Part shown: piece by piece, positions 47,961 to 56,829 of the stretch | How positions within the stretch are numbered: the stretch's first letter is position 1 | Layout: the number at the start of each line of letters is the position of its first letter | Assembly (NCBI RefSeq): GCF_000158035.1 | Contig: NZ_EQ973489.1 | Coordinates: 8,694 to 72,693 of the forward strand | Direction: 5' to 3' | DNA length: 64,000 bases | DNA from: Bacteroides cellulosilyticus DSM 14838 | GTDB lineage: Bacteria; Bacteroidota; Bacteroidia; Bacteroidales; Bacteroidaceae | Translations under genes and position numbers: made by a program | The notes under the pieces: generated by a model | Databases searched by the model: none | Told to the model about the DNA's origin: nothing | What the model saw: the letters and a program-made list of their open reading frames with translations, nothing else

Positions 47961-49224
<1,264 letters not shown>

Positions 49225-49332: not shown

Positions 49333-50607
49333 ACTGTTTTCTATGGTTCAAAGATACTAAAATGAAAGCAAATCACAACCTCAGTCACGGTTTCCACGTC
49401 CGTTGCTTACTGTTTTCTATGGTTCAAAGATACTAAAATGAAAGCAAATCACAACTATAGTATCTTTACTATCTGTTAAATATGGACTGTTTTCTATGGT
49501 TCAAAGATACTAAAATGAAAGCAAATCACAACGGACTTTGAGTGTTTCTAAAGACGAATGAACTGTTTTCTATGGTTCAAAGATACTAAAATGAAAGCAA
49601 ATCACAACATATCTTTGTTTTATTTCATTGCAATGATAACTGTTTTCTATGGTTCAAAGATACTAAAATGAAAGCAAATCACAACGGACAGATGGAAGGC
49701 TGACCAGATAGAAAACTGTTTTCTATGGTTCAAAGATACTAAAATGAAAGCAAATCACAACTGAATACTTATATTCTTTTGTCGTCGCATCACTGTTTTC
49801 TATGGTTCAAAGATACTAAAATGAAAGCAAATCACAACACCGCAAGCGGTGTTATGGTAGTCTTGATACTGTTTTCTATGGTTCAAAGATACTAAAATGA
49901 AAGCAAATCACAACAAGGGGGAAACAGATAACTACCGTGAAAAACTGTTTTCTATGGTTCAAAGATACTAAAATGAAAGCAAATCACAACCAGTGGCAAT
50001 CTGTGGGCGAAGATGAACCTACTGTTTTCTATGGTTCAAAGATACTAAAATGAAAGCAAATCACAACATTGATACGATCGGAGAAGGCGCGGGCGTAACT
50101 GTTTTCTATGGTTCAAAGATACTAAAATGAAAGCAAATCACAACCGAGTATAAGTTCTCAGTTGAGGAGGCCAGACTGTTTTCTATGGTTCAAAGATACT
50201 AAAATGAAAGCAAATCACAACAGGATATTAAGATTAAGCGCCTGAAGAAAAACTGTTTCCTATGGTTCAAAGATACTAAAATGAAAGCAAATCACAACTA
50301 CAGATTTCACGCTGTCGGAGTTGACGTTACTGTTTCCTATGGTTCAAAGATACTAAAATGAAAGCAAATCACAACGTACGTCTTTGGGTTGGGTTTGTAT
50401 AGCCAACTGTTTCCTATGGTTCAAAGATACTAAAATGAAAGCAAATCACAACAGGTAAACAAGTTCATTGCCCATGTCCTCCACTGTTTCCTATGGTTCA
50501 AAGATACTAAAATGAAAACAAATCACAACAATCGAGCATATTCGTATCTACGCCAACAGGCTGTTTCTAATGGTTCAAAAATACAAAGATGAGAAACAAA
50601 TTACAAC
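49333..50607 (-). CRISPR. CRISPR array: 17 repeats of 47 bp, 16 spacers of 29-30 bp
   Basis: Repeat 1 is 49333-49379; further repeats start at 49409, 49486, 49562, 49639, 49715, 49792, 49868, 49944, 50021, 50098, 50175, 50252, 50329, 50406 and 50483, and a degenerate last repeat is about 50561-50607. On the minus strand (crRNA sense) each begins GTTGTGATTTGCTTTCATTT. Repeats 1-12 are identical; 13-16 share one base change (TTTCCT for TTTTCT on +), and 16 has another. Spacers are unique to the eye. Sense is assigned from the tracrRNA anti-repeat. The last repeat's drift marks the old end at 50607. Confidence 0.98.
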
Positions 50608-50776: not shown

Positions 50777-51550
50777 CTATTTTATCTTTTCCCTAATCTT
50801 CGTCAGATACAGCTTCATCCCTTCCGCATCCTTCGTACTGATAATTTCCAGCAAATTCTTTAGCTCCAGACGAATATTTTCCACTTGCGAGGGAGTGCGC
50901 GGATTAAAGAGAATTTCCTGAAGTAAGTAATCATCTTCACTCAGCAAACCCTTGGCAATAGCCATATGCTTCTTGAACGTAGTACCCGGAGCCTCCTGGT
51001 GCTTCATCACCGCTGCAAAAACAAACGTAGAGACAAAAGGAATAGACAGAGAATAGGCTACCGTCTCATCATGTTCGTCGAAAGTATATTCGAAGATATT
51101 GAGGCGGAGCGTCTGGTAAAGGTCCTTGAAGAAAATTTTTCCCAGGTGGTCACCTTCACTGATGATGATAGCATTCTCGCTGCTCAGATTGCTGAGGCTG
51201 GCAAACGTAGGGCCAAACATCGGATGCGACGATACATAACGGAAACCACTTTCCTCATAGAATTTCTTCAATCCCGTCTTCACTGAGGCGATATCACTGA
51301 TGATACAATCCTTGGGCAGCACAGGCAGCACCTTGCGGAATGCGTCCAGCGTATATCTCACCGTGGCGGCATTGATTACCAACTCCGGTTCGAAGTCCTT
51401 TATCTCTTCCAACGTGGTGAAACGATACGTGTTATAGACAAAACGCAACTGGTGCGGATTCACGTCGAACACTGCCGTTTCATGTTGGAAACTTAGAATA
51501 TCTGTAAAGAAAGAGCCCATCTTGCCGGCTCCGAGTATTAAAATACGCAT
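50777..51550 (-). CDS. tyrA: Prephenate dehydrogenase
   Basis: It oxidises prephenate to 4-hydroxyphenylpyruvate, the tyrosine branch. The 257-residue protein has the NAD-binding start RILILGAGKMGSFFTDILSF, the motif DCIISDIASVKTGLKKFYEE and the substrate-region His in YVSSHPMFGPTFASL. It lacks a fused chorismate mutase, which is supplied by the upstream gene. Last gene of the pheA-aminotransferase-aroF-tyrA operon, 79 bases after the preceding gene. Confidence 0.92.
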   Translation of the reverse strand: MRILILGAGKMGSFFTDILSFQHETAVFDVNPHQLRFVYNTYRFTTLEEIKDFEPELVINAATVRYTLDAFRKVLPVLPKDCIISDIASVKTGLKKFYEESGFRYVSSHPMFGPTFASLSNLSSENAIIISEGDHLGKIFFKDLYQTLRLNIFEYTFDEHDETVAYSLSIPFVSTFVFAAVMKHQEAPGTTFKKHMAIAKGLLSEDDYLLQEILFNPRTPSQVENIRLELKNLLEIISTKDAEGMKLYLTKIREKIK

Positions 51551-51629: not shown

Positions 51630-52697
51630 TCACTTGTTTATAATTTCCATTTGTTGCCTCACACTCTCCTCGTGTATCAGCTCGAATACCTTCTTGATAA
51701 ATTCCGAATCCACGCCCAGAAGCACACCTTGAGAACCGCGTTTATCCAGAATTTCATTGTAACGTCCCGTTTGCAGAATCGTCATATCGTGCTCTTTCTT
51801 GAACGTACCGATTTCACGTGCCACACGCATACGCTTGGCAAGTTCCTGCATCAGGTTGTTGTCGCACTCATCAATCTGCTTGCGCAGTTCGCTGAGGTTT
51901 TCTGTGGTCTGGGTCTCTTTACGGATGACGAGCAGGTTCAGGATGTAATCCAGTACGTCCGGAGTTACTTGCTGCGAAGCATCACTCCATGCACAGTCGG
52001 GGTTGCAGTGACTTTCGATAATCAGACCGTTGAAACCGAGGTCCATAGCCTGCTGGCAAAGCGGTGCGATGAGTTCGCGCTTACCACCGATATGGCTGGG
52101 ATCGCAGATGATCGGCAAGTTTGGGATGCGACGACGCAACTCGATGGGGATATGCCATTGCGGCAGATTGCGGTACAACTTCTTGTCGTAACTGCTGAAA
52201 CCGCGGTGGATGGCTGCCAGACGTTTCAGACCGGCATTGTTGATACGTTCCAGGGCACCGATCCAGAGTTCCAAATCCGGGTTTACCGGGTTCTTCACAA
52301 ACACAGGAATATCCACACCCTTCAGTGCATCGGCAATTTCCTGCATGGCAAACGGGTTGGCAGTGGTGCGTGCGCCAATCCAAAGGATATCGATACCTGC
52401 TTTCAGACACTCGTATACATGCTTCGAAGTGGCTACTTCGGTAGAAACGTACATTCCGGTTTCTTTCTTCACCTCTTTCAGCCATGCCAGACCGTCTACG
52501 CCTACACCTTCGAAACCACCCGGTTTGGTACGCGGTTTCCAGATTCCGGCACGGAATATCTTCATTCCTTTTTCGGCCAGTTGTTTGGCGGTGCACATTA
52601 CTTGTTCTTCTGTCTCGGCGCTGCAAGGACCTGCAATTACCATGGGACGTTTGTCCTCAATACCCGGCAGCAAAATCGATTCTAATTCAAGTTCCAT
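51630..52697 (-). CDS. Bifunctional DAHP synthase / chorismate mutase
   Basis: A 355-residue fusion. Residues about 1-260 are a type I-beta DAHP synthase (PMVIAGPCSAETEEQVM, FRAGIWKPRTKPGGFEGVG, IHRGFSSYD, PIICDPSHIGGKRELIAPL, IESHCNPDCAWSDASQQVTP), the first step of the shikimate pathway. Residues about 268-355 form an AroQ chorismate mutase (LSELRKQIDECDNNLMQELA, RVAREIGTFKKEHDMTIL). Joining first and branch-point steps allows feedback by prephenate or chorismate products, as known for this fusion class. Its starting ATG is at 52697, and a small tandem repeat lies between it and the aminotransferase. Confidence 0.94.
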   Translation of the reverse strand: MELELESILLPGIEDKRPMVIAGPCSAETEEQVMCTAKQLAEKGMKIFRAGIWKPRTKPGGFEGVGVDGLAWLKEVKKETGMYVSTEVATSKHVYECLKAGIDILWIGARTTANPFAMQEIADALKGVDIPVFVKNPVNPDLELWIGALERINNAGLKRLAAIHRGFSSYDKKLYRNLPQWHIPIELRRRIPNLPIICDPSHIGGKRELIAPLCQQAMDLGFNGLIIESHCNPDCAWSDASQQVTPDVLDYILNLLVIRKETQTTENLSELRKQIDECDNNLMQELAKRMRVAREIGTFKKEHDMTILQTGRYNEILDKRGSQGVLLGVDSEFIKKVFELIHEESVRQQMEIINK

Positions 52698-52813
52698 ATT
52701 CTTTTATTTTTGTTCAATTATATTTTTATTGTATAGATATTTCTCAGTGTCTTCTGAACCCTCTGCAACCCCCGTCGATAAAGCCTTTCGAACGTGTTAA
52801 TAAATACAGGCCT

Positions 52814-52871
52814 CGTTTTTTAAAAACGTTGCCCTTATTCTTTAAAAACGTCGGGCACGTTTTTTAAAACG
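52814..52871. repeat. Three-copy 22-bp tandem repeat of AT-rich palindromes
   Basis: Copies start at 52814, 52836 and 52858, each 22 bases apart, with the core CGTTTTTTAAAAACG or close to it. The core is a near-perfect palindrome. It lies in the 215-base gap between the aminotransferase and the DAHP synthase genes, inside the operon. The core differs from that of the array at 40518, but the period is the same. Confidence 0.55.
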
Positions 52872-52912
52872 GTGAGTGACTTGTGTTACAGGACTTCTTT
52901 TTTGTAAATATA

Positions 52913-54094
52913 TTACTTCATCTCCCTGATGCGCTTCAATGCCTCTTCCAATTTATGGTCTTTGCAGCAAAGCGAGATGCGGATATACCGTTTTCCGTTA
53001 CTTCCAAAGATAAATCCCGGCGTGATGAACACGCGTGCGTTGTGCAACACCTTTTCAGTCAGTTCTTCAACGTCGGCACAGCTATCGGGAATTTTTCCCC
53101 AGAGGAACATACCTACCTGTTTTTCATCGTATGTACATTCCAGTGCATGCATGATTTCCCCTGCCAGATGGCGGCGGCTGCGGTAGTTCTTGTTATTTCC
53201 GTCGTACCATTCCTGTTCGGCTTCCAGAGCGTTGGCGGCTGCCAGTTGCATGGCGCGGAACATACCGCTGTCGATGTTGCTCTTCACTTTCAGGATCCAT
53301 TGCACAAAGTCGGCGTTGCTTGCCAGCATACCGATACGCCAACCCGGCATATTGTGGCTCTTGCTCATGGAGTTGAACTCGATGCAACACTCTTTGGCGC
53401 CCGGCACACTGAGGATGCTGAGGGGGTGGTCGTTCAGGATGAAGCTGTACGGGTTATCGTTTACAATCACGATGTCCTTACGGCGTGCAAAGTCCACCAG
53501 TTTTGCATAAAGTTCCGGGGTGGCGTTAGCTCCGGTCGGCATGTTCGGATAGTTGGTCCACATCAGCTTTACGCGGCTCATGTCCATCTTTTCCAGTTCG
53601 TCGAAGTCGGGCATCCAGCCGTTTTCCTCTTTCAGGTTGTAGTTGATGACTTCCGCGCCCAGTATCTTGCTCAATGAGGTATAAGTGGGGTAGCCCGGAT
53701 TGGGAACCAATACCTGTTCGCCCGGATTGACGAAGGCCAGTGTGACGTGCAGGATACCTTCTTTCGAGCCGATGAGCGGCTGTATCTCAGTATTAGGATT
53801 CAGCTCCACGCCGTACCATTTCTTATACCAGGCGGCAAAGCTGCGGCGAAGTTCGGGGATGCCGACATAAGGCATATAACCGTGTCCGTCAGGATTTTGT
53901 GCTTCGCGGCACAGGGTCTGTATGGTTGCTTCCGAGGGAGGCATGTCGGGGCTGCCGATTCCGAGGCTGATTACGTCTTTTCCTTCGGCATTCATTTGTG
54001 CCACCTCTTTCAACTTCTTGGAGAAGTAGTATTCGCTCACGCTGGCCAACCGGTCGGCGGGCTTGATCTTAGATGTTTGATTTTCCGTCTGCAT
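52913..54094 (-). CDS. PLP-dependent aminotransferase (class I/II), probably aromatic
   Basis: A 393-residue fold-type I aminotransferase. Motifs: VISLGIGSPDMPPSEATIQT, YMPYVGIPELRRSFAAWYKK, LVPNPGYPTYTSLSKILGAE, MWTNYPNMPTGANATPELYA, IVNDNPYSFILND and the PLP Lys in FNSMSKSHNMPGWRIGMLAS. The family includes LL-diaminopimelate aminotransferase-like and aromatic enzymes. Its place between pheA and the DAHP synthase points to transamination of phenylpyruvate and hydroxyphenylpyruvate, or of prephenate; the exact substrate is inferred. It overlaps pheA by 26 bases. Confidence 0.9.
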   Translation of the reverse strand: MQTENQTSKIKPADRLASVSEYYFSKKLKEVAQMNAEGKDVISLGIGSPDMPPSEATIQTLCREAQNPDGHGYMPYVGIPELRRSFAAWYKKWYGVELNPNTEIQPLIGSKEGILHVTLAFVNPGEQVLVPNPGYPTYTSLSKILGAEVINYNLKEENGWMPDFDELEKMDMSRVKLMWTNYPNMPTGANATPELYAKLVDFARRKDIVIVNDNPYSFILNDHPLSILSVPGAKECCIEFNSMSKSHNMPGWRIGMLASNADFVQWILKVKSNIDSGMFRAMQLAAANALEAEQEWYDGNNKNYRSRRHLAGEIMHALECTYDEKQVGMFLWGKIPDSCADVEELTEKVLHNARVFITPGFIFGSNGKRYIRISLCCKDHKLEEALKRIREMK

Positions 54095-54917
54095 ATTCGC
54101 CTAATATTTTAAGTTCTTTGGTTAGCGGTGTGATGGCCGCGATGGATTGTTTATATCTCAGTAGGTTGTCGAAAACAACGTCTACGTAAAATTGGTATTC
54201 CCATTCCCGCCCGATGATGGGCAGTGACTGTATTTTGGTCAGGTTGATGCTGTAGAACGAAAGAATGGACAGTACTTGCGAGAGGCTTCCTTCCGTGTGG
54301 GGCAGTGTGAATACCATGCTTGCCTTGTTGGTTTCCGGGTGTGGATGGCGGCGTATTTCGTCTACTTGCCAGGGATCGGCAACTACCAGAAAACGGGTGA
54401 AGTTGTGCTTGTTTGTTTCGATGCCTTCCTGCAACACCTTCATGCCGTAACGCTCGGCAGCAGCCTTGGAGCAGATGGCGGCGTGTCCTTTCAGGTTCTC
54501 CCGCTTGATGATTTCGGCGCTGAGGGCGGTGTCTTCCGCTTCCACTACTTTCATCTTCGGGTGCTGGGCAAGGAACTCGCGGCATTGCATCAGTGCGATG
54601 GGGTGGGAGTTGACTTCCGTCAGATCGTTCCAGTCCTCATCGGGCAGGCAGACAAAGCTGTGTGAAATGCGTAGTTTGTATTCGCCTATGATTTGTGTTC
54701 CGCTCTGCCGCAGCAACTCGTTGTTGTGCAACAGGCTACCTGCAATGGTATTCTCTATTGCCAACATTCCTATGGTCTTGCTGTCCTTCTTCACGGCTGC
54801 AAACACGTCCTCAAAAGTAGCGCAACAGATTAACTCTATTTCTTCTCCTTCGAAGTACTTGTGTGCGGCAATGTCGTGATACGACCCTAATGTTCCTTGA
54901 ATGGCTATTCTTTTCAT
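54069..54917 (-). CDS. pheA: Prephenate dehydratase
   Basis: It converts prephenate to phenylpyruvate, the phenylalanine branch. The 282-residue protein has the catalytic domain (IAIQGTLGSYHDIAAHKYFE, FEDVFAAVKKDSKTIGMLAI, ENTIAGSLLHNNELLRQS, NKHNFTRFLVVADP) and a C-terminal ACT domain (KASMVFTLPHTEGSLSQVLS) for Phe feedback. It lacks the fused chorismate mutase of enterobacteria. It is the first structural gene of the operon; its transcript begins with a leader holding a Phe/Tyr-rich peptide and an attenuator. Confidence 0.95.
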   Translation of the reverse strand: MKRIAIQGTLGSYHDIAAHKYFEGEEIELICCATFEDVFAAVKKDSKTIGMLAIENTIAGSLLHNNELLRQSGTQIIGEYKLRISHSFVCLPDEDWNDLTEVNSHPIALMQCREFLAQHPKMKVVEAEDTALSAEIIKRENLKGHAAICSKAAAERYGMKVLQEGIETNKHNFTRFLVVADPWQVDEIRRHPHPETNKASMVFTLPHTEGSLSQVLSILSFYSINLTKIQSLPIIGREWEYQFYVDVVFDNLLRYKQSIAAITPLTKELKILGEYADGKSNI

Positions 54918-54933
54918 ACTGTTTCTTTAAAAT

Positions 54934-54967
54934 AAAAAATCCCGCTTCCATACAATGGAGCGGGATT
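54934..54967 (-). terminator. Attenuator terminator in the pheA leader
   Basis: On the minus strand AATCCCGCTCCA (54967-54956), loop TTGTA, and TGGAAGCGGGATT (54950-54938, one bulged base) form a strong stem followed by TTTTTTATTTT. It lies about 17 bases before the pheA ATG, between leader peptide and gene, which is where a transcription attenuator should be. Confidence 0.88.
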
Positions 54968-55039
54968 AAGTATATTACTTTAGTTCTCTATTCAGTTCTT
55001 AAGCATCACTGTCACTTGACACATACAAACTCCCGCTCT
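54956..55039 (-). promoter_or_regulatory. Antiterminator pairing that competes with the attenuator
   Basis: The sequence GAGCGGGA within codons 21-23 of the leader peptide (about 55031-55038) is exactly complementary to TCCCGCTC in the 5' arm of the terminator (about 54958-54965). When free it can pair with that arm and prevent the terminator. If a ribosome stalls at the Phe/Tyr codons, this segment is left uncovered; if translation runs on, it is covered and the terminator forms. The complementarity is seen; the mechanism is inferred from known phe and trp attenuators. Confidence 0.7.
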
Positions 55040-55098
55040 ACTTTCTGGCTAAAGTAAAAGTAAAAAAAGAAGTAATATGTATAAGTAAACAAATTCAT
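55012..55098 (-). CDS. Phe/Tyr-rich leader peptide of the aromatic operon
   Basis: A 28-residue frame starting with ATG at 55098 and ending with TGA at 55012. Residues 4-16 read FTYTYYFFFYFYF: eleven of thirteen are Phe or Tyr, and the whole peptide has 7 Phe and 5 Tyr. It precedes, on the same strand, a terminator and then pheA, so it has all the parts of a PheL-type leader, here sensing both products of the operon. A promoter lies 34 bases upstream of the start codon. No annotated homologue is known to me, because such peptides are too short for ordinary gene calling. Confidence 0.88.
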   Translation of the reverse strand: MNLFTYTYYFFFYFYFSQKVEREFVCVK

Positions 55099-55131
55099 AC
55101 TTTCGTTTTCTTTTTGTTTTTAATTTCGTGG

Positions 55132-55160
55132 CAAAAGTAATACTTTTCTCTTATATGCAA
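55132..55160 (-). promoter_or_regulatory. Promoter of the aromatic operon
   Basis: On the minus strand TTG (55158-55160), an 18-base spacer and TACTTTTG (55132-55139). The expected start near 55124 gives a leader of about 207 bases that contains the whole peptide and attenuator. Confidence 0.62.
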
Positions 55161-55245
55161 GCAAAAAATGATATTTTTTTTATTTCTTCTTCAAAATTAG
55201 CTTTCAGACGAGTGCTTCCGGTTGTCTTTTTCTGCCGGAAATCCA

Positions 55246-56829
55246 TCAATCGTCGTGCATGATTCCCTTGATTTGCTCCCATTTGTTCACGGCATCGTTG
55301 GACTGTGCTTTTCCCGGAGTGCTCCGGCCTTCGCGGATGTACTTTTGCAATAGGTCTTTCAGCTCGCTGACTATTTCGGGATGTTCTTGATAGACATTTT
55401 TGCTTTCGGTGGGATCGTCTTTCATATTATAGAGTTGAATCGGTGGGAGTTGGGCAATGGCTTCCTTGTCCACACCCGGTTTGGGGTAGCTCCAACCGCC
55501 GGAACTGGGGGAACACAACAGTTTCCAGTCTCCTTTACGGATGGCAAACTCTCCGCGGATGGAGTGGTGCACGGTTGCTTCACGGATGGTTGGCATGTGG
55601 TGCGGATTCCGGATGAGGGGAAGAATGTTGTAGCTGTCTTCCGCTTCGTTATCTTTCAGGGGATAATGGTTGAGGGCGGCAAAAGAAGCGTAGAAGTCGT
55701 TGAGGCAGACAGTTTGCGCACAGGTGCCTCGACCTGCACCGTTGACCCATTCCACGATGGTGGGTACGCGGTGACCGCCGTCGAAGAGATCGGCTTTCAT
55801 GCCTCGCCAGATGTAGTTGGCATGATGCCCTTTAGCTGCCATTTCGGGGATACCTCCGGCGGGAGAGCAACCGTTGTCGGTGGTGAAAACTACGATGGTA
55901 TTGGAATCTATACCGTTGCGTCGCAGGGCTTCGCGCACTTGTCCCACTACATCGTCCACCATCAGGACGAAGTCGCCGTAATCACCCAGTCCGGTTTTTC
56001 CTTTGAAGGCTTCGGCGGGCAGGATGGGGGTATGCGGGGCGGGCAGGGGCAGATAGAGGAAGAAGGGGCGTTCGTCTTGTGCGTGGCGGTTGATATAGTC
56101 TACTGCGCGGTGGGTTAGGTTGGGCAGACAGTCCTGGTGGTTGAAGTCGTTGCCTATGGCGCCTGCACGCCAGAAGCCCGGTTTCTTTCCTGCGGGTACG
56201 GTGCCTATTTGCGTGGTGGTGGGCTGGCGGTTTTCTATATATACATAGGGAGCCATGTCGAGGGAACCGCAGAAGCCGTAGAAGTAGTCGAAGCCTAAGT
56301 CGACAGGACCGTTGGTGATGGGTTTAGAGTAGTCCACGTCTTCGTCGTTGAGGGCGTTGGCGTCGGGTTTCTCATGTCCCGGTTTCGTGCCCCAGTTCCA
56401 GCCTAAATGCCATTTGCCGATGCAGGCGGTGGTATATCCATTTGCTTTCAGCATGGATGCCATGGTACTGCGGGTGGTGGGGATGATAGGGCGGGAGTAG
56501 CCATAGAGTACACCGCTTTTGAGGCTGGAACGCCAGTTGTAGCGCCCTGTGAGGATGCCATAGCGGGTGGGGGTGCTGACGGCTGAACAAGAATGAGCAT
56601 CGGTGAACATTACGCCGTTGGCGGCCATCTGGTCGATGTGGCGGGTTTGGATATGCGAGTCTTTGTTGTAGGCGGAGACATCTCCATAGCCCATATCGTC
56701 GGCGAGGATGAAAATGATGTTCGGCTTTTGCTGGGGTTGTGTGTCGGGGTGAGGGGATGACTGTGCATGGGCATGTTGTCCAAGGCAGAAGGGAACGGAT
56801 AATAATCCGAGATAGGTGAGGTTTTTCAT
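55246..56829 (-). CDS. Secreted S1-family sulfatase (Ser-type formylglycine motif)
   Basis: A 527-residue exported arylsulfatase-like enzyme. It has a signal peptide (MKNLTYLGLLSVPFCLGQHA, cleavage near HAQS), the metal-binding start NIIFILADDMGYGDVSAYNK, the formylglycine site CSAVSTPTRYGILTGR (S-x-P-x-R, so the Ser form matured by an anaerobic radical-SAM enzyme), IGKWHLGW and VVFTTDNGCSPAGG. It probably removes sulfate from host glycans or polysaccharides; the substrate class cannot be told. The maturase is not in this window. A -7 element TAATTTTG lies about 42 bases upstream of its start. Confidence 0.92.
   Translation of the reverse strand: MKNLTYLGLLSVPFCLGQHAHAQSSPHPDTQPQQKPNIIFILADDMGYGDVSAYNKDSHIQTRHIDQMAANGVMFTDAHSCSAVSTPTRYGILTGRYNWRSSLKSGVLYGYSRPIIPTTRSTMASMLKANGYTTACIGKWHLGWNWGTKPGHEKPDANALNDEDVDYSKPITNGPVDLGFDYFYGFCGSLDMAPYVYIENRQPTTTQIGTVPAGKKPGFWRAGAIGNDFNHQDCLPNLTHRAVDYINRHAQDERPFFLYLPLPAPHTPILPAEAFKGKTGLGDYGDFVLMVDDVVGQVREALRRNGIDSNTIVVFTTDNGCSPAGGIPEMAAKGHHANYIWRGMKADLFDGGHRVPTIVEWVNGAGRGTCAQTVCLNDFYASFAALNHYPLKDNEAEDSYNILPLIRNPHHMPTIREATVHHSIRGEFAIRKGDWKLLCSPSSGGWSYPKPGVDKEAIAQLPPIQLYNMKDDPTESKNVYQEHPEIVSELKDLLQKYIREGRSTPGKAQSNDAVNKWEQIKGIMHDD

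Follow-up and report, generated by a model that had tools for sequence, protein, structure and literature searches.

The four-gene aromatic amino acid operon of Bacteroides cellulosilyticus DSM 14838 is preceded by a Phe/Tyr-rich leader which, judged from comparative sequence evidence, is with high probability best explained as an attenuator that works through the ribosome and responds to phenylalanine as well as tyrosine. The parts of this switch, their conservation, their covarying pairings and the match between leader codons and operon content are visible in the sequence and in its comparison with relatives. The leader elements and operon genes described below lie on the reverse strand of the window, the 64,000-nucleotide stretch of contig NZ_EQ973489.1 that was analyzed.

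Leader peptide, terminator and operon organization

Sequence and ORF translation revealed a leader frame of 28 codons, encoding MNLFTYTYYFFFYFYFSQKVEREFVCVK and followed by a stop codon, at 55012-55098. Codons 4-16 (55051-55089) form the regulatory codon run with 11 aromatic residues, six Phe and five Tyr, and the 3' part of the run constitutes segment 1. Segment 2 (55030-55046), supported by folds, swap tests and a triple change in a relative, can pair either with the codon run (1:2 stem) or with the 5' arm of the terminator (2:3 antiterminator). This 5' arm, AATCCCGCTCC (54957-54967), is segment 3 and doubles as the 3' strand in the antiterminator; its sequence TCCCGCTC (54965-54958) is complementary to GAGCGGGA (55038-55031) in leader codons 21-23. 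The intrinsic terminator is a stem-loop at 54938-54967 with a predicted stability of -17.6 kcal/mol and a run of six T at 54934-54939, and it sits 16 nt upstream of pheA. It was not listed by a consensus terminator scan, perhaps because of its bulge, and was found by sequence reading and folding. The initial annotation of this DNA had described the Phe/Tyr frame, the T-run terminator just before pheA and the 8-base complementarity to its 5' arm, and all three were confirmed.

The downstream genes were pheA, encoding prephenate dehydratase (54069-54917; PF00800, 1.6e-55), a class I/II aminotransferase presumed to be an aromatic or prephenate aminotransferase (52913-54094; PF00155, 2.1e-59), a DAHP synthase-chorismate mutase gene (DAHPS-CM; 51630-52697; PF00793 and PF01817) and tyrA, encoding prephenate dehydrogenase (50777-51550; PF02153, 5.3e-10). 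These Pfam matches agree with the four-gene aromatic operon that had been proposed earlier. A stretch of 215 nt (52698-52912), longer than its counterpart in some relatives, separates the aminotransferase gene from DAHPS-CM. Directly downstream of tyrA there is a CRISPR array (49333-50607) with 17 repeats matching Rfam CRISPR-DR49, and a cas2-like frame (48811-49224) lies beside it.

RNA folding and proposed mechanism

The transcript region folded with a z score of -4.1, and none of 200 shuffles was equally stable. In the predicted fold, the antiterminator segment finds a partner in the Phe/Tyr codons of the leader; this 1:2 stem, which was absent from the initial annotation, completes the classical three-way RNA choice. 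Simulated folding of the window's nascent RNA gave the antiterminator when the stalled ribosome was placed at codons 4-16 and transcription had only just passed the 5' arm, and it left the terminator alone when the ribosome stood at codon 20 or beyond. When the full-length RNA was folded with the ribosome at six stall positions in codons 4-16, the terminator was the minimum-energy fold in five and the antiterminator for codon 12 only. Since the full terminator is the more stable structure for five of the six positions, the attenuation choice would be kinetic.

From these parts we infer where transcription starts, that the leader is translated, that ribosomes stall in it, and that termination and read-through take place in the cell. 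RNA polymerase would start approximately 30 nt upstream of the leader frame, and a ribosome would follow through the six Phe and five Tyr codons. When both charged tRNAs are plentiful, the ribosome would continue and cover GAGCGGGA in codons 21-23, the terminator hairpin would form and a leader RNA of approximately 190 nt would be released. When either tRNA is scarce, the ribosome would stall in the run and cover segment 1, releasing GAGCGGGA from the 1:2 stem; the freed GAGCGGGA would then pair with the emerging TCCCGCTC, blocking the terminator and allowing transcription of pheA, the aminotransferase gene, DAHPS-CM and tyrA. Without translation, the 1:2 stem would hold segment 2, making termination the default. 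That Phe/Tyr stalling frees the antiterminator and turns on the four genes had been proposed in the initial annotation, and the comparative evidence presented below favors it.

Conservation of the leader among Bacteroides relatives

PheA was searched for in genome contigs and the best 80 of 560 relatives were kept, which together with the window gave 81 upstream regions. The top relative was a Bacteroides timonensis contig whose PheA is identical to that of the window. Conservation of the frame in relatives had been set as a test, and the leader was present in 77 of the 81 genus-level regions, the window among them. In three of the four regions missing it, the upstream sequence was 143 nt or less. 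The fourth kept the codon run in its 3' portion, without the leader start or a complete -7 element; the leader was apparently lost there by deletion, an assembly artefact also being possible. Two metagenome-derived loci kept the leader while the terminator 5' arm was absent, either through real loss or through an assembly artefact, and another locus had one mismatch in this arm.

Codon variation was judged on 69 leaders of exactly 28 residues, representing 51 distinct DNA sequences. Codons 4, 6, 8, 10 and 11 vary synonymously (TTT/TTC, TAT/TAC) and mostly keep Phe or Tyr, the exceptions being one Leu at codon 4, one His and one Asn at codon 6, and two Pro at codon 11; codon 9 showed seven non-aromatic residues. 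Synonymous variation of this kind, in the first half of the run, points to a coding signal. Codons 13-16 (TAC TTT TAC TTT), which can pair with segment 2, were invariant at the DNA level across the 69 leaders, and codons 20-26 showed hardly any variation, silent positions included, as is expected where the DNA must also pair.

The hydrophobic run and the tail KVEREFVC, which hardly varies at genus level and is partly retained in two other loci (L084 and L196), would also fit a small hydrophobic or membrane peptide with a function of its own, as opposed to a leader that regulates. However, the pairing of segment 2 accounts for the invariance of the tail, silent positions included, and distant relatives lose the tail and keep both the Phe/Tyr run and the complementarity to their own terminator arm. 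A functional peptide is regarded as scarcely credible, the least so of the explanations weighed here.

Conservation across Bacteroidia and comparison with chance

Two overlapping draws of Bacteroidales genomes, comprising 198 and 393, were also searched for PheA and gave matches in 88 and 185, respectively; the search further covered seven genomes of one family and 247 genomes of the phylum, 215 of the latter giving a match. A subset of all PheA matches, 160 loci in sets of 60, 40 and 60, was fetched, and 14 of the last 60 were picked since their families had shown a lone pheA or absence of the leader. The leader was scored as a frame with at least six Phe/Tyr in 12 residues at loci with enough upstream sequence. 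It was found upstream of pheA in 108 of 119 Bacteroidales loci (103 when at least seven Phe/Tyr were required), in 18 of 19 loci from other Bacteroidia orders and in 3 of 21 loci from classes outside Bacteroidia. For two of the 108 leaders, the automatic pick was a distant spurious frame and the gene-adjacent frame was substituted by hand. Among 3,960 dinucleotide shuffles of 99 pheA upstream regions, at least six Phe/Tyr in 12 residues occurred in 5.8%, seven in 1.1% and eight in 0.23%, compared to 62 of the 99 actual regions with at least eight. These findings show that the Phe/Tyr leader at pheA is real and far above chance.

A leader together with a simple terminator was found at 122 of the 160 loci, and the script accepted no terminator for seven leaders with a good Phe/Tyr run. 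No leader was found at loci L159 and L240, nor at two loci from genomes of 1.0-1.2 Mb that kept the four-gene operon. Three loci outside Bacteroidia with a Phe/Tyr leader had a PheA nearer to that of the window than most others drawn from their own classes, possibly reflecting transfer of the whole operon.

Leader codons follow operon content

Each locus was assigned to an operon class according to whether tblastn placed the aminotransferase, DAHPS-CM or TyrA of the window downstream of pheA and on its strand. Of the 160 loci, 31 had no leader and two with short downstream sequence were excluded. Across 47 families, the 119 operon leaders had cores with 629 Phe and 465 Tyr in total and at least two Tyr in every one, and the cores of the eight lone-pheA leaders (four families) held 53 Phe and 3 Tyr, with zero or one Tyr in every one; these are raw counts that ignore ancestry, and by Tyr fraction one pair is inverted. 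Four loci considered as exceptions on account of zero or one Tyr were dismissed because all of them were lone-pheA loci. The gene after the lone pheA in one of these (L137) was ilvD by Pfam, this being the sole such downstream frame tested. No leader was found at 8 of the 16 Bacteroidales lone-pheA loci.

DAHPS-CM was sought in 10 lone-pheA genomes, two of them without a pheA leader. A separate Tyr-rich leader was found upstream of the detached aromatic genes in seven of the 10, for example MIKNISVFAYFYYYFYFSKK in genome G024 and MNNTFGYYAFYYYFFYNN upstream of a prephenate dehydrogenase in genome G014. A terminator followed the detached Tyr-rich leader in five of the seven. Two of the seven, G089 and G500, had two tandem leaders, and the script found one terminator in G089 and none in G500. 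No leader was found at the detached DAHPS-CM of G533 or within 390 nt upstream of the DAHPS-CM match in G470, and the DAHPS-CM locus of G034 begins at the contig end. Tandem Tyr/Phe(/Trp) leaders of this kind stand upstream of a detached aminotransferase-DAHPS operon at loci L261 and L262. Trp was present in 18 leaders of the 99-locus set, all of them with DAHPS-CM; no Trp-sensing role is claimed, most DAHPS-CM operons having no Trp in their leader.

These counts bear on whether Tyr is sensed at all. The same attenuator might sense Phe alone, with the Tyr codons acting as filler that keeps segment 1 pairable with segment 2, and both the DNA invariance of the pairing codons 13-16 and the presence of Phe in every leader listed at class level are in line with this. 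However, zero or one Tyr was found in 8 of 8 lone-pheA leaders compared to 0 of 119 others, Tyr-rich leaders stand at the detached genes in 7 of 10 lone-pheA genomes, and the Tyr positions 6 and 8 vary synonymously. Sensing of Phe alone is considered unlikely. Tyr codons that follow operon content are what sensing of both amino acids would predict, unlike a structural filler role, and in the operon leaders the amino acids of the regulatory codons are those that the operon makes, genes for both Phe and Tyr synthesis lying downstream.

Aromatic operons in other bacteria are under T-box or protein control, and the terminator could in principle respond to such a signal (a T-box, or a metabolite- or protein-binding leader), the frame being incidental. 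At gathering thresholds, only CRISPR-DR49 matched Rfam in the whole window. No T-box was found at gathering score in the window or among matches with E<=5 for positions 54900-55250, and the Phe_leader family RF01859 scored 18.8 bits against a cut-off of 55, missing the gathering score. No credible Rfam family appeared at gathering or permissive thresholds. The frame and the identity of its codons recur class-wide and follow operon content, which also argues against control by another signal, and this explanation is judged to be very improbable.

Covariation of the alternative pairings

Alignment of the leader had been proposed as a way to look for compensatory changes, and covariation was seen both in a swap test and in an individual genome. 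In the swap test, the stretch that follows the codon run was paired in turn with the terminator 5' arm of the same locus and with the arms of all other loci. Over 122 loci, the mean for own pairs was -13.96 kcal/mol compared to -9.17 kcal/mol (sd 0.22) for permuted pairs, and none of 20,000 permutations reached the own value. With one locus per family (n=49), which is the only way the permutations control for ancestry, the means were -13.91 and -9.47 kcal/mol (sd 0.34), respectively, with 0 of 50,000 reaching the own value. The 1:2 stem, likewise with one locus per family (n=49), gave -15.54 compared to -11.01 kcal/mol (sd 0.40; 0 of 50,000). A composition control with the arm reversed covered the antiterminator duplex only; in it, own pairs gave -8.70 and permuted pairs -7.73 kcal/mol (0 of 20,000), and thus approximately 1 of the 4.4 kcal/mol antiterminator excess is due to shared composition.

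A Bacteroides metagenome-assembled genome (L009) carried a matched triple change, C to T in the leader, G to A in the 5' arm and C to T in the 3' arm. Its leader had GAGTGGGA in place of GAGCGGGA, changing Arg to Trp, and in its terminator the 5' arm CCCGCT was changed to CCCACT and the 3' arm GCGGG to GTGGG. The antiterminator is exclusive with the terminator, and its strands covary both in the swap tests and in this genome.

Candidate promoter element and candidate pause site

A promoter had been placed upstream of the leader at 55132-55160. This agrees with the sequence TACTTTTG (TAnnTTTG) at 55139-55132, a candidate element which, following the consensus of the Bacteroides sigma factor, we take to be a Bacteroides-type -7 element, and with TTTG at 55165-55162, a candidate -33 element, separated from it by a 22-nt spacer. 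The -7 element recurs at genus level, TAnnTTTG being found 15-75 nt upstream of the leader ATG at 75 of 76 loci with enough sequence; a control window 120-180 nt upstream gave one match among an uncounted number of loci long enough for it.

The sequence GTATG at 55022-55026 is a candidate RNA polymerase pause site or an extension of the antiterminator helix. TATG occurred 8-18 nt past the start of the antiterminator core at 53 of 120 loci, whereas two windows further downstream held it in 8 of 106 and 2 of 68 cases, and it is also present after the his, trp and ilv leaders of the window's genome. A G at -10 relative to TATG was found in 40 of 56 cases and fits the RNA polymerase pause consensus; as a pause signal it is only a lead, the G-rich core occupying that position anyway. 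We infer that the polymerase may pause at GTATG.

Other amino acid leaders in the same genome

Three further leaders, each followed by a terminator, were found in the window's genome: MKNIVAHHHHHHYLTNNR, with a His run, upstream of hisG; MLINTYWWWRPLQLRQS, with a Trp run, upstream of a trpB-like gene (PF00291) and trpE; and the Ile/Leu/Val-rich MNLHTSINLAVLHIIRVVVLESRA upstream of ilvD. Antiterminator pairing as good as the observed one occurred in 31, 123, 1 and 2 of 1,000 mononucleotide shuffles for his, trp, ilv and phe, respectively. The pairing is clear at ilv and phe and not convincingly above the shuffles at his and trp, and for the latter two operons only a leader and a terminator are therefore claimed. 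The region presumed to contain the start of thrA yielded no Thr/Ile leader followed by a terminator. The His, Trp and Ile/Leu/Val leaders suggest that attenuation is general in this genome.

Relation to known attenuation systems

In Enterobacteriaceae, pheL is a Phe-run leader upstream of pheA with a terminator, an antiterminator and a three-way RNA choice. The locus described here resembles pheL (Phe_leader, RF01859) in each of these respects and differs from it in that the Bacteroides leader also has Tyr codons, precedes a four-gene operon with DAHPS-CM and tyrA, and has a TAnnTTTG promoter element and an A-rich region upstream of the ATG. The initial annotation had called sensing of two amino acids by one leader unusual. 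This was overstated, since enterobacteria have leaders that respond to two or more amino acids, namely those of thr (thrL) and ilv; the present leader is like them in this and differs in reading aromatic amino acids and in belonging to Bacteroidia. A 2004 abstract by Vitreschak reportedly names some Bacteroidetes/Chlorobi candidates, and earlier predictions of such leaders may exist.

The claim that the mechanism is little described in Bacteroidota also went too far. For B. thetaiotaomicron, Table 7 of PMC1173090 (2005), drawing on an attenuator-prediction website, gives a putative attenuator upstream of pheA>hisHb>aroA-aroQ>tyrA. It concerns the same operon and genus and is likewise a prediction; the words 'leader' and 'codon' are absent from the main text of that paper, which therefore describes neither a leader peptide nor any codon specificity. 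PMC9723704 (2021), on Flavobacterium psychrophilum, presents strong clues that amino acid operons are attenuated through leader peptides, with 5' elements before pheA and hisG, the former conserved in Flavobacteriaceae and without an Rfam match. Leader-peptide attenuation is suggested there as it is here, and the section on these elements is silent on the peptide, its codons and Bacteroides. According to the relevant passage of PMC7366714 (2020), short frames resembling leader peptides occur in some long 5' UTRs of B. thetaiotaomicron, for example at BT_4401. The authors of PMC2965389 (2010) state in the passage concerned that, to their knowledge, leader-peptide systems had previously been shown only in Proteobacteria and Actinobacteria, their own case being from Firmicutes (ermC set aside). 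A word search of PMC10994844 for a statement on the pheA operon gave 0 matches, and none was found in the accessible portions of PMC4833913, PMC8305728 and PMC1262725. Among the matches listed from the open-licence literature, which leaves subscription papers mostly outside, no title or abstract dealt with the peptide of this leader, its codon logic or its class-wide spread. Taken together with the comparative evidence, this is very probably a classical mechanism in a class-wide Phe and Tyr variant, with codons re-tuned as operons split, and not a categorically new one.

Significance for Bacteroidia

One joint reading of these findings appears somewhat more probable than its negation. According to it, the leader would be a class-wide re-tunable sensor whose codons are rewritten as operons split or merge, being Phe-only with a lone pheA, Tyr-rich and sometimes with Trp where DAHPS-CM and tyrA are apart, and mixed when the genes are together; ribosome-mediated attenuation would be a general control of amino acid operons in Bacteroidia, seen at his, trp, ilv and the aromatic genes in the window's genome; and it would operate without Shine-Dalgarno initiation, with a built-in polymerase pause at GTATG and with close coupling of transcription and translation in the phylum.

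The present analysis names a likely control switch for Phe and Tyr synthesis in dominant gut bacteria. It offers a natural experiment in which leader codons change along with the genes they would control, and a readable code by which the amino acids of a leader predict the product of the downstream operon. Ribosome-mediated attenuation, if Bacteroidia do rely on it, would require close coupling of transcription and translation in these organisms.
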